From Sedimentisphaerales bacterium (GTDB lineage: Bacteria; Planctomycetota; Phycisphaerae; Sedimentisphaerales; Anaerohalosphaeraceae): a DNA stretch of 52,383 nucleotides. The notes beneath the pieces are model-generated. The model saw only the letters and a list, made by a program, of their open reading frames with translations. It ran no database searches and had not been told where the DNA came from. Positions 46,509-51,033 of this stretch are shown one piece after another (the stretch's first letter is position 1; each line of letters starts with the position of its first letter). The stretch spans positions 1-52,383 of the forward strand of contig JAFGPC010000158.1 of assembly GCA_016926155.1 (NCBI GenBank), written 5' to 3'. The translations under genes were made by a program, and so were the position numbers.

Positions 46509-46555
46509 TTAGATCGTGAGTGGGGGCACCCTTTGGAAGCGAGGAATACTGTAAC

Positions 46556-48097
46556 ATGAAAAGCAAGCGTATCTTTTCCTTCTGTTTGTTCGTCCTGCTC
46601 GCCTGGCTGATCAGTAACGCACAATCCCAATCATGTCAGTCCAATGACGATTGTCCGAAAGGTTATTATTGTGCCAAGGAGATCGGCGACTGTGACGGCA
46701 AGGGCGAATGCACAGAACGTCCAAAAACCTGCCCGGACATCTGGGATCCCGTCTGCGGCTGTGACAATCAATCCTATACCAATGCCTGTGAAGCCGCGGC
46801 GGCTGGAGTGAATATCGCCTATGAAGGACTGTGCCAGATTCCATGCACGACCGGGCGGGATTGCGGTGAGAACTATTTCTGTTACTTTGTAAACTGCTCC
46901 GACACGGAAGGATTCTGCGCCTATCGTCCGGAGGAATGTGAGCCGATATGGGATCCGGTCTGCGGCTGTGACGGCGTAACTTATTCCAACTCATGTTATG
47001 CCGCCATGGTCGGCGTCAGTGTGGATTATAGGGGCGAATGTGTGCCCACTTCATGCACCTCCAACCTGGATTGCGGATCGAGCCACTATTGTCGCAGAGA
47101 AAATTGCAGCGACCTCGAAGGCGAATGCGAACCGATTCCTCTGGCCTGTCCCGATGTGTGGGCCCCGGTCTGCGGATGCGACGAGATCACCTACGGCAAC
47201 GCCTGCGAAGCGGCCATGGCGGGAATGAGCATTGCCTATGAAGGTGAATGTATTATTGTTCCCTGCAGTTCCAATGCTGACTGCGATTCGCAACATTACT
47301 GCTTCAAGGAAAACTGTGATGACACCGAAGGTGTTTGCCGCCTGCGCCCGGTAACGTGCTCGCGGATTTGGGATCCGGTCTGCGGCTGCGATGGCCAGAC
47401 GTATGCCAACGCCTGTGAAGCGGCACGACATGGCATCAACGTTGCGTACCAAGGTGAATGTCTCCCTCCCTGCACATCCAACGGCGATTGCGATCCGGAT
47501 CATTACTGTTATTTTGAGAACTGCCAGGATCCGTCGGGCTTATGCATGCCGCGACCGGAAGTCTGTCCCGACATCTACGATCCCGTATGCGGCTGTGACG
47601 GTATCACATACGACAACGACTGTTATGCGGCTATGGCGGGGATAAGCGTAGCGTATGATGGCCCCTGTGAGCCTAGAGGTCCCCAGCCAATCATGAAGGA
47701 ACCCTGGGTAATTTCGGATGATGTGCATTCCGGTCCGTCCGGTGTACCGCAACTGCGGATCCTCTGGAGCGAGCCGGTGCTGTTTGTACCGAGCGATGTC
47801 GTCGTGGCCAATGAAGAGGATGAGTTTCTTTCCATTACGGTTTTGGGCAACGACAGTGATATTATGACCATCCGTTTCAATGAACCGCTGATCCATGATC
47901 GATACCGCATTAATATCAGGGACACCGTCGTCAGCGCTCTCACGGGACACGCCATTGACGGGGATTTGGACGGTATCGCCGGCGGAAAAGTGGGTATCGC
48001 CATGGAACATCGCAAGCGGGCCGATATGGACAACAATAATCTGGTCAGCCTGGATGACCTAGTCCGCTTCGCCGAGGCATGGCTCTGGCAGCCGTAA
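46556..48097 (+). CDS. exported five-repeat Kazal-like protein with dockerin-like tail
   Basis: A 513-residue secreted protein. After a signal peptide (residues 1-25) come five tandem units of ~70 residues (about 27-377), each with 10 cysteines. The first half is C-x-S-N-x-D-C ... H-Y-C ... N-C-x-D-x-E-G-x-C, a knottin/EGF-like piece. The second half is a Kazal-type inhibitor core (I-W-D-P-V-C-G-C-D-G-x-T-Y-x-N-x-C). Residues ~378-485 look like a beta-sandwich (L-R-I-L-W-S-E-P-V ... I-T-V-L-G-N-D) and the end (A-D-M-D-N-N-N-L-V-S-L-D-D-L-V-R-F-A-E-A-W-L) is one dockerin-like half-repeat. Kazal modules inhibit serine proteases in eukaryotes; protection from predators or foreign proteases is a guess. 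GAGGAA precedes the ATG by ~9 bases. Confidence 0.88.
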   Translation: MKSKRIFSFCLFVLLAWLISNAQSQSCQSNDDCPKGYYCAKEIGDCDGKGECTERPKTCPDIWDPVCGCDNQSYTNACEAAAAGVNIAYEGLCQIPCTTGRDCGENYFCYFVNCSDTEGFCAYRPEECEPIWDPVCGCDGVTYSNSCYAAMVGVSVDYRGECVPTSCTSNLDCGSSHYCRRENCSDLEGECEPIPLACPDVWAPVCGCDEITYGNACEAAMAGMSIAYEGECIIVPCSSNADCDSQHYCFKENCDDTEGVCRLRPVTCSRIWDPVCGCDGQTYANACEAARHGINVAYQGECLPPCTSNGDCDPDHYCYFENCQDPSGLCMPRPEVCPDIYDPVCGCDGITYDNDCYAAMAGISVAYDGPCEPRGPQPIMKEPWVISDDVHSGPSGVPQLRILWSEPVLFVPSDVVVANEEDEFLSITVLGNDSDIMTIRFNEPLIHDRYRINIRDTVVSALTGHAIDGDLDGIAGGKVGIAMEHRKRADMDNNNLVSLDDLVRFAEAWLWQP

Positions 48098-49029: not shown

Positions 49030-49054
49030 TGTTTCCCTGTCCGATTAGACCACC

Positions 49055-49252: not shown

Positions 49253-50413
49253 ATGAAGACGGTTATAGGATGGGTTATTGCCTGGTCTGTGCTGGGGGGA
49301 ATTTCTGTCTTCGCGGACTGTCCTTCGGCCGATCTTACGAGAGACTGCTACGTCGATCTGGCGGATCTGGCTGTTCTGTCCCAATGCTGGCTACAGACTT
49401 ATGAACCGAATAGTCTTTGCGAGAGAGCCGATCTGTTTACCTCCGGCTCTGTGGACCTCGACGACCTGGATGTGTTGGCCTCAGCATGGCAGACGGGAAA
49501 CCGCCTGCCTGCCGATTTGATCATTATTCCCGCCGGCACGTTCCAGATGGGCGATAATTTCAATGAAGGAGATTCAGACGAACTTCCCGTTCATACGGTG
49601 ATCCTGGATTCTTTTGCCATGGGCAAATACGAGATCACCAATGGGCAGTTCCGGGATTTCCTCAATTCCGCCAAGTCTCAGGGTCTGATTACCGTTACAA
49701 ACGGTGTAGTGTATAAATCCGGTTCCGGGACCAGCTACCCCTATTGCGATACCCATACTTGGAGTTTCTATAGCCAGATCGACTATGCAGGGGGCAGTTT
49801 TTCTGTCCGCACCAAGGGAGGCCGGAGCATGGTTAATGACCCGATCGTATATGTAAGCTGGTACGGGGCGGCGGCCTACTGCAACTGGCGAAGCCAGGAG
49901 GAGGGCAAGCCAACCTGTTACAATCTCTCCACTTGGACCTGTGATTTCAGCAAGAAGGGCTATCGGCTTGCCACGGAAGCCGAATGGGAGTATGCCGCAC
50001 GTGGCGGACGATCTGGAAGCCGATTCCCCTGGGGGGATACGATCTCCCACAGCCAAGCGAATTACTATAGTTCAAGCTCTTACAGCTATGATACCAGTAC
50101 AACCCATGGTTATCACCCAACCTGGAACGATGGGATATATCCTTATACCTGCCCCGTAGACAGTTTTGCCCCGAATGGGTATGGTTTGTATAACATGGCG
50201 GGCAATGTCTGGGAATGGTGCCACGACTGGTATGGAAAGTACAGTTCCGGTTCACAAACCAATCCAATCGGACCCGGAACAGGTAGATATCGTGTGCTTC
50301 GCGGCGGCGGCTGGTTCTACGGCGCCGACGTCTGCCGGGTGGCGTACCACGGCAGCAGCTTCCCGGACGGCCGGTACAGCTACTACGGATTTCGTGTTGT
50401 CCTGTCCGATTAG
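49253..50413 (+). CDS. exported dockerin-like + formylglycine-enzyme-fold (SUMF) protein
   Basis: A 386-residue protein. A signal peptide (residues 1-21) is followed by two dockerin-like half-repeats (~28-48 and ~59-80: D-L-A-D-L-A-V-L-S-Q-C-W, D-L-D-D-L-D-V-L-A-S-A-W) and then an FGE/SUMF C-type-lectin fold (~87-386). Landmarks: I-P-A-G-T-F-Q-M-G, Y-E-I-T-N-G-Q-F, V-S-W-Y-G-A-A-A-Y-C-N-W-R, Y-R-L-A-T-E-A-E-W-E-Y-A-A-R-G-G, N-V-W-E-W-C-H-D-W and R-V-L-R-G-G-G-W. GGAGG lies 9 bases before the ATG. Such proteins in planctomycetes are mostly non-enzymatic binding proteins. The C-terminal patch (residues 350-379) has a codon pattern like a diversity-generating retroelement variable region; see that feature. 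Confidence 0.87.
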   Translation: MKTVIGWVIAWSVLGGISVFADCPSADLTRDCYVDLADLAVLSQCWLQTYEPNSLCERADLFTSGSVDLDDLDVLASAWQTGNRLPADLIIIPAGTFQMGDNFNEGDSDELPVHTVILDSFAMGKYEITNGQFRDFLNSAKSQGLITVTNGVVYKSGSGTSYPYCDTHTWSFYSQIDYAGGSFSVRTKGGRSMVNDPIVYVSWYGAAAYCNWRSQEEGKPTCYNLSTWTCDFSKKGYRLATEAEWEYAARGGRSGSRFPWGDTISHSQANYYSSSSYSYDTSTTHGYHPTWNDGIYPYTCPVDSFAPNGYGLYNMAGNVWEWCHDWYGKYSSGSQTNPIGPGTGRYRVLRGGGWFYGADVCRVAYHGSSFPDGRYSYYGFRVVLSD

Positions 50414-50425
50414 AAGCGTTGCTTC
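50300..50425 (+). other. candidate DGR-type variable region with 3' hairpin
   Basis: Codons for residues 350-379 of the FGE-like protein. The scaffold R-G-G-x-W ... C-R-V-A ... P-D-x-R ... G-F-R is that of DGR variable regions such as TvpA's. All 24 codons from 355 to 378 end in C or G: 19 are NNC (TTC, TAC, GGC, GCC, GAC, GTC, TGC, TAC, CAC, GGC, AGC, AGC, TTC, GAC, GGC, TAC, AGC, TAC, TAC) and none is NNT. In the ~60 codons before, pyrimidine endings split about evenly between T and C. NNC at most of the surface positions is what adenine-mutagenised AAC codons look like. A 5-bp hairpin GAAGC-GTT-GCTTC sits at the stop codon (50413-50425), where DGR cassettes carry an inverted repeat. No template or reverse transcriptase in the window. 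Confidence 0.5.
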
Positions 50426-50472
50426 CAACGGATAAAAAATGAACCACGAAGAACACAAAGAACGCGAAGAAC

Positions 50473-50523
50473 AGAAATTAAGAATTAAAACTTCAGTACC
50501 TTCATGGTCTTCATGGTAGAAAA
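50473..50523 (+). repeat. 51-bp direct repeat, left copy
   Basis: Begins AGAAATTAAGAA and ends CTTCATGGTAGAAAA. Differs from the right copy (50974-51024) at only two of 51 positions. The A/G-rich tract before it (GAACCACGAAGAACACAAAG) belongs to the GAAGAAC-type leader often found before GxxExxY genes. Confidence 0.9.
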
Positions 50524-50546
50524 AACAAAAACAATGGAAGCCATAT

Positions 50547-50930
50547 ATGGACGAAAAACGTAAGTTTAGTGAATTGTCCAATAAGGTCATTGGCTGTGCG
50601 ATCGAAGTGCATAAGACGCTGGGACCGGGTCTTCTGGAGTCGGCCTATCAGCAGTGCCTGTGTCATGAACTGCGACTCAATAACCTCTCCTTCGAGATGG
50701 AGAAACCGCAGCCTGTCCGCTACAAGGGCTGTCGGTTGGATTGCGGGTATCGAATTGATATCCTCATCGAAGAGGAGATCATTGTTGAACTCAAGAGCGT
50801 CGAGAAGATCAAACCCATTCATGAAGCCCAGATTCTGTCTTATATGAAGCTGGCAGAGATAAAGTATGGGTTTCTGATCAATTTTAATGTGCCATTGTTA
50901 AAAGAGGGCCTGAAAAGTTTTGTTTTGTAA
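50547..50930 (+). CDS. GxxExxY protein (PD-(D/E)xK nuclease-like fold)
   Basis: A 127-residue protein with the namesake motif G-P-G-L-L-E-S-A-Y (Gly28, Glu31, Tyr34) and a PD-(D/E)xK core: Asp71 in Y-R-I-D-I-L, Glu81 and Lys83 in V-E-L-K. The fold family includes nucleases, but no activity is proven for GxxExxY proteins, which are common in planctomycetes, Bacteroidota and other phyla in multi-copy, patchily distributed genes. Length and motifs are complete. GGAAG lies ~8 bases before the ATG. It is flanked by 51-bp direct repeats and follows the FGE-like gene by 133 bases, which suggests a mobile or recently copied unit. Confidence 0.9.
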   Translation: MDEKRKFSELSNKVIGCAIEVHKTLGPGLLESAYQQCLCHELRLNNLSFEMEKPQPVRYKGCRLDCGYRIDILIEEEIIVELKSVEKIKPIHEAQILSYMKLAEIKYGFLINFNVPLLKEGLKSFVL

Positions 50931-50973
50931 TACTTCTATTTGTACCATGAAGGACAGGAAGAATAGAAAGAAA

Positions 50974-51024
50974 AGAAATTAAGAAGTAAAACTTCAGTAC
51001 CTTCATGGGCTTCATGGTAGAAAA
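50974..51024 (+). repeat. 51-bp direct repeat, right copy
   Basis: Second copy of the repeat at 50473-50523, 501 bases downstream, 49 of 51 bases identical. It starts 43 bases after the GxxExxY stop. Confidence 0.9.
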
Positions 51025-51033
51025 TAAATCAAC

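Follow-up and report, generated by a model that had tools for sequence, protein, structure and literature searches.

A probable orphan variable region of a diversity-generating retroelement in a planctomycete gene encoding an FGE-fold protein

Introduction

Can the target of a diversity-generating retroelement (DGR) be recognized when the retroelement itself is nowhere nearby? The question is raised by a gene on contig C218 of the planctomycete assembly G000 (5.0 Mb, 222 contigs, 95.9% complete). The whole stretch of DNA analyzed, 52,383 nucleotides of this contig, is called here the window. According to the original prediction, the gene encodes an FGE-fold dockerin protein ending in a DGR-like variable region (VR) and may be a remote DGR target. 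By the mechanism proposed for such targets, a DGR reverse transcriptase (RT) and its Avd partner would copy a template repeat (TR) whose variable codons are AAC. Adenines would be misread during the copying, and the resulting cDNA would be written into the target gene in place of its 3' end; the change from AAC to NNC on a fixed scaffold could then provide a new binding surface.

Targets that stand apart from a DGR have been described. Strains of Treponema denticola that carry neither RT nor TR keep leftover FGE targets (PMC4891356), and trans-acting DGRs have been documented in Thiohalocapsa (PMC10907252). A survey of DGRs states its own inability to detect remote targets (PMC8144416).

Results and Discussion

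The gene and its product

The gene (Table 1) encodes a protein of 386 amino acids, of which residues 87-383 match the FGE-sulfatase family PF03781 (E 1.7e-59). This much of the description as an FGE-fold dockerin protein is secure, but the match to Dockerin_1 at residues 26-75 lies below threshold (E 0.059), and the N-terminus is best called weakly dockerin-like. An AF2 model of the protein (pLDDT 88) matches TvpA of T. denticola (2y3c, rmsd 3.5) and FGE enzymes, including human FGE (matches to 2q17 and 1y1e). With TvpA, matched in sequence as well as fold, the protein shares the FGE/CLec fold of a DGR target and a C-terminal VR. TvpA comes from another phylum, however, and its relatives are lipoproteins, whereas the protein described here has the weak dockerin-like N-terminus. 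With the formylglycine-generating enzyme (SUMF1) it shares the overall fold but retains a single Cys counterpart in the active-site segment LCHDSYC, the first cysteine being missing in the alignment with 6muj and 2q17. Because the active-site cysteine pair (LC....C) is not conserved, catalysis of the FGE type is unlikely, and an enzymatic function was rejected in favor of a predicted role in binding. Elsewhere in the window, 46520-48097 encodes a protein with five Kazal domains and a dockerin-like C-terminus (RADMDNNNLVSLDDLVRFAEAWLW).

Table 1. Positions of the features discussed, in the window unless a locus is given
Feature	Position	Strand	Basis
Target gene: secreted protein, weak dockerin-like N-terminus and FGE-sulfatase (C-type-lectin-fold) domain	49253..50413	+	ORF, Pfam, AF2 model
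FGE/CLec-fold domain	49511..50401	+	PF03781
Predicted variable region: codons 355-378, 15 NNC template positions, conserved scaffold W...AD.CRVA......PD.R....GFR	50315..50386	+	Codon counts, comparison with templates and homologues
Stretch homologous to DGR template repeats (CGTGTGCTTCGC ... GTTGTCCTG)	50291..50404	+	Gap-free against the G008 and G032 templates
Short, weak hairpin TCCGATTAGAAGCGTTGCTTCCAACGGA across the stop codon, at another position than the post-VR hairpin of relatives	50405..50432	+	Folding z-scores
G008 template repeat	L082:2621-2745	-	Gap-free match to 50291..50404
G032 template repeat	L101:1480-1625	+	Gap-free match to 50291..50404

Codon signature of the tail

Codons 355-378 read TTC TAC GGC GCC GAC GTC TGC CGG GTG GCG TAC CAC GGC AGC AGC TTC CCG GAC GGC CGG TAC AGC TAC TAC. 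Their third bases are C in 19 cases and G in 5, with A and T absent, while the 60 codons that precede them (295-354) end in C 20 times, T 18 times, and A and G 11 times each. The two counts on which the prediction was built, no T ending among 24 codons and a nearly even split of T and C endings upstream, are thus both correct. The T-free run in fact extends over 30 codons (350-379), the longest in the gene. The pattern is beyond chance, since only 0.6% of third-base permutations reach a run of 30 and none of 50,000 within-gene shuffles of synonymous codons leaves codons 355-378 devoid of T (P < 2e-5). By the same shuffle, 19 or more C endings in these codons have P = 2.4e-4.

The endings are also distributed as a DGR would leave them. 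All 15 predicted template positions, those that are AAC in DGR templates of FGE-type targets, are NNC, and all five G-ending codons fall at backbone positions (hypergeometric P = 0.003). One codon fits poorly: residue 366 is encoded by CAC, where every template seen has CGC, and adenine mutagenesis alone cannot turn CGC into CAC.

One might suppose instead that no DGR took part and that recombination with a high-GC relative gave the gene a G+C-rich FGE tail of the ordinary kind. The G+C content of the tail, 0.68 compared with about 0.5 upstream of it, is what this supposition would predict, and ordinary FGE tails of high-GC members of the class are indeed rich in NNC (for example L061 and L062 of genome G380). 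High G+C content, however, leaves unexplained why endings other than C are confined to the backbone, and the G380 tails contain AGT, CAT, GCA and CCT codons. Matches to the NNC pattern across the class were dropped as candidate VRs: they had no BLAST-detectable RT nearby, G380 had NNT and NNA codons, and they were taken to be GC-rich ordinary FGE tails. Nor does an imported gene end account for the scrambling of first and second codon positions, with conservation of the third, in comparisons with VRs of the same family (see below). We consider such an origin improbable.

Comparison with templates and targets of related DGRs

A DGR with a similar target occurs in a sister genus of the same family. 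Contig C311 of genome G008 (L082, 4.9 kb) carries a DGR RT (motifs IGNLTSQ and YCDD), a bAvd gene (PF22296, E 2e-19), a template repeat (RGGNWNNNANNCRVANRNNNRPDNRNNNIGFR) and an FGE-fold target. The core of this template differs from its own VR at 13 of 31 adenines and at none of 80 other bases. The target is 60% identical to the C218 protein outside the tail and has the same CRVA...PD.R...GFR scaffold.

The C218 tail aligns with the G008 template without gaps. Over 99 nucleotides, mismatches affect 22 of 31 adenines but only 12 of 68 other bases (Fisher 5e-7), so that 56 of the 68 non-A template bases match. A preference for mismatch at adenine against a foreign template was dropped as stand-alone evidence, as it is not specific: FGE tails with little NNC signature also mismatch the G008 template more at A than at non-A (Fisher about 0.03-0.005). 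More discriminating is the fate of the third base. The C218 tail keeps the C of all 12 AAC codons of the G008 template, as against 1 of 12 in L038 and L271, conserved DRP-type FGE tails of the same family. Two paralogues within G000 keep it at 10 of 12 (C155, L032) and 7 of 12 (C200, L033).

Phycisphaerae MAG24 (G032), of the same order, has two cassettes. One of its VRs encodes W...ADVCRVA, as does the tail, in a target 57% identical to the C218 protein; the template on contig C80 (JAEIOG010000129.1) reads TGG(AAC)3GCC(AAC)2TGCCGGGTTGCC. This cassette differs from the C218 locus in being complete in cis, and the synonymous codons of the backbone differ. More cassettes with the same type of target were found in Phycisphaerae OFTM285, Planctomycetaceae PLM2.Bin2, fen_1346 and Gemmataceae palsa_1347. 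The best foreign template mismatches the tail at 18 of 90 non-A positions, and none of the collections searched yielded a cognate template.

The relatives searched included no second genome of the genus. Outside the tail, the closest homologue, 75% identical over the FGE domain, is again in the DGR-carrying genome G008. The confirmed targets L082 and L092 (60% and 57% identical) fall with the C218 gene in one clade of 17 rows; the homologue tree is star-like and usable only for this clade as a whole. Across the body of the gene, codon positions 1, 2 and 3 are identical to those of homologues at frequencies of about 0.76, 0.80 and 0.47. At the template codons of the tail, compared with VRs that are confirmed or that bear the 3' homing site (IMH), positions 1 and 2 match at only 8-13 of 30 sites and position 3 at 13-14 of 15. 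Codon conservation is therefore inverted in the tail, where the third position is the one kept and the first two are scrambled. Such a pattern is not a product of ordinary protein evolution, but it does result when AAC codons undergo adenine mutagenesis.

The tail among FGE tails of the family

How unusual is the tail? The null set consisted of 55 ungapped FGE tails, drawn from 39 genomes belonging to the family. With 15 of 15 template positions NNC, the C218 tail ties for the top score with that of G011:C68, and confirmed VRs score 10-14. An independent validation of the codon score comes from the IMH core (TGGAC/TT within 75 nucleotides), which accompanies 6 of 15 high-C tails but 3 of 62 others (77 genes, Fisher 0.0013).

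Genomes G011 and G015, both 99% complete, have IMH-bearing NNC tails, and a DGR-type RT was detected in neither. Their tails (L283 on G011:C68 and L260 on G015:C18) and that of L267 (G003:C350), which combine NNC codons with an IMH of the CCTGGACTTT type in genomes where no DGR RT was detected, are probably orphan VRs. The G003 tail had been classed as an ordinary FGE tail, a judgment reversed by its score of 13 of 15, its IMH and its hairpin.

A search for the cassette

No template repeat was found in G000 by blastn with the tail DNA, by a tail-specific pattern allowing up to 3 mismatches, or by a generic FGE-template pattern. The last can be said to work, since it recovers the templates of G008 and G032. 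A pattern scan of viral contigs likewise gave no match. No DGR-type RT (IGxxxSQ) was found in G000 by Pfam, by PHROG, with the G008 RT protein, or with a profile of four DGR RTs, for which, at E values up to 1, a group II RT was the sole match. The only RTs of the assembly, that of a group II intron (C69) and a retron-like enzyme (C98), were rejected as DGR RTs, both having QGxxxSP, which is not the DGR motif. The retron-like gene (L026:6129-7136, minus strand) matches retron_St85_RT with E 2e-63, below the cut-off. No Avd protein was seen among the window ORFs reviewed. The statement that the window holds neither RT nor template was therefore accurate and can be extended to the rest of the assembly; the proposed search for an AAC-type repeat beside a DGR RT elsewhere in the genome found neither in this 96%-complete assembly.

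Unlike the target in the G008 cassette, then, the C218 gene has no adjacent RT, Avd or TR. It also lacks the IMH of related cassettes (CCTGGACTTT in the VR and CCTGCACTTT in the TR), the tail reading CCTGTCCGATT / CCTGTCCGATTAG there, and there is no GAGCGAAGCGAG-type post-VR hairpin after the gene. The short hairpin noted earlier at the stop codon does exist, with z = -1.8 as a 61-mer and -2.8 as a 28-mer chosen post hoc. A DGR-like role for it did not hold up, and it was rejected as DGR evidence because it is weak and lies elsewhere than the hairpins of relatives.

An exact 14-nucleotide direct repeat, CCTGTCCGATTAGA, is found at 49036-49049, upstream of the gene, and at 50401-50414, across the stop codon. 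The upstream copy, which lies 1.4 kb away and repeats the end of the VR, was considered as the remnant of a template and rejected, there being no AAC-rich sequence just ahead of it.

Origin and present state of the tail

Taken together, the homologous target in a sister genus, the match to its template, the inverted codon conservation and the FGE-tail controls argue for a DGR origin. Very likely, 50315-50386 is a DGR-type VR on an FGE-fold secreted protein, orphaned because its cassette was recently lost or is unassembled or unbinned. That the tail would have been made by adenine-directed mutagenic homing is well supported by these sequence comparisons, and the cassette that made it was, we infer, related to that of G008.

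Which of the two fates befell the cassette is a separate matter. Both are sub-cases of the orphaned VR, and confidence in each adds to confidence in that explanation rather than competing with it. Perhaps the cassette was lost and the VR has since been passed on like the end of any other gene, a reading to which we would give nearly an even chance. It is in keeping with a genome that offers no RT or template and a tail that offers no IMH, and with the graded series of third-C retention in that one genome, where C155 and C200 may represent later stages of decay. The leftover targets of T. denticola provide the precedent. Any such loss must have been recent, however, since no NNC position has decayed at 15 sites, and a cassette could still hide in the missing 4% of the genome. 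It is also plausible, if somewhat less probable, that a cassette on a chromosome, plasmid or phage contig missing from the bin continues to diversify the gene, as the undecayed 15 of 15 NNC positions would suggest and the trans-acting DGRs of Thiohalocapsa would allow. In related MAGs, most of the contigs that carry cassettes measure 3.3-19 kb (4.9 kb in G008), and contigs so short easily drop out of bins. The RT clade of G008 is moreover found on two IMG/VR contigs classed as viral (L178 and L179), whose DGR (66% identity to the G008 RT) comes with an FGE target and a TR/VR pair. Such a hidden cassette must nonetheless be reconciled with a 96%-complete assembly lacking RT and template, with the absence of the IMH of related cassettes, and with the near-complete genomes G011 and G015, where NNC tails likewise occur and no DGR RT was detected. 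Recent loss comes out slightly ahead because the IMH is missing and such relatives lack an RT; undecayed NNC codons and short, easily lost contigs pull the other way.

The description of the gene as a remote DGR target thus survives in part. A DGR-made tail is favored by template match, inverted conservation and controls, but a live remote target is no more than a possibility, RT and template being absent from the assembly and the IMH from the tail, and an orphan or leftover target fits at least as well. The gene is homologous to cassette-borne targets, has the CLec/FGE fold and a C-terminal VR, and differs from the G008 template mostly at adenines; it would be a further case of the orphan DGR target, a kind already known from T. 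denticola.

If this is true, a DGR target may be recognizable by codon composition alone where cassette-based mining finds nothing. One may speculate, tentatively, that this planctomycete family as a whole maintains a stock of FGE-fold surface proteins with tails derived from transient DGRs, the cassettes coming and going (perhaps with mobile elements) and the tails staying, slowly to decay; in that case even genomes that lack an RT would preserve legible traces of earlier DGR action. Should the pattern prove family-wide, orphan VRs could serve to date the loss of DGRs and, where metagenome-derived genomes are fragmented, to tally former targets.

Other observations

In the planctomycete DGRs of L082, L091, L092, L102, L103 and L105, the same single base distinguishes the 3' end of the VR (CCTGGACT, IMH) from that of the template (CCTGCACT, IMH*), and most have a GAGCGAAGCGAG-type hairpin about 45 nucleotides past the stop. 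G032 contains an additional template-like sequence (L359, G032:C169:18586-18630) ending CCTGCACTT, possibly from a third, partly decayed DGR. In G080:C29 (L060), three FGE-type tails of the form RGG.W...GFR occupy one frame of 1017 codons, with 99%-identical 300-nucleotide repeats between the tails. Finally, downstream of the C218 gene, near-identical AT-rich intergenic repeats (cttcagtaccttcatggtcttcatggtagaaaa) lie at about 50470-50530 and 50970-51030, and between them, as if in a cassette, is a small PDDEXK_3 (PF13366) gene at 50547-50930.
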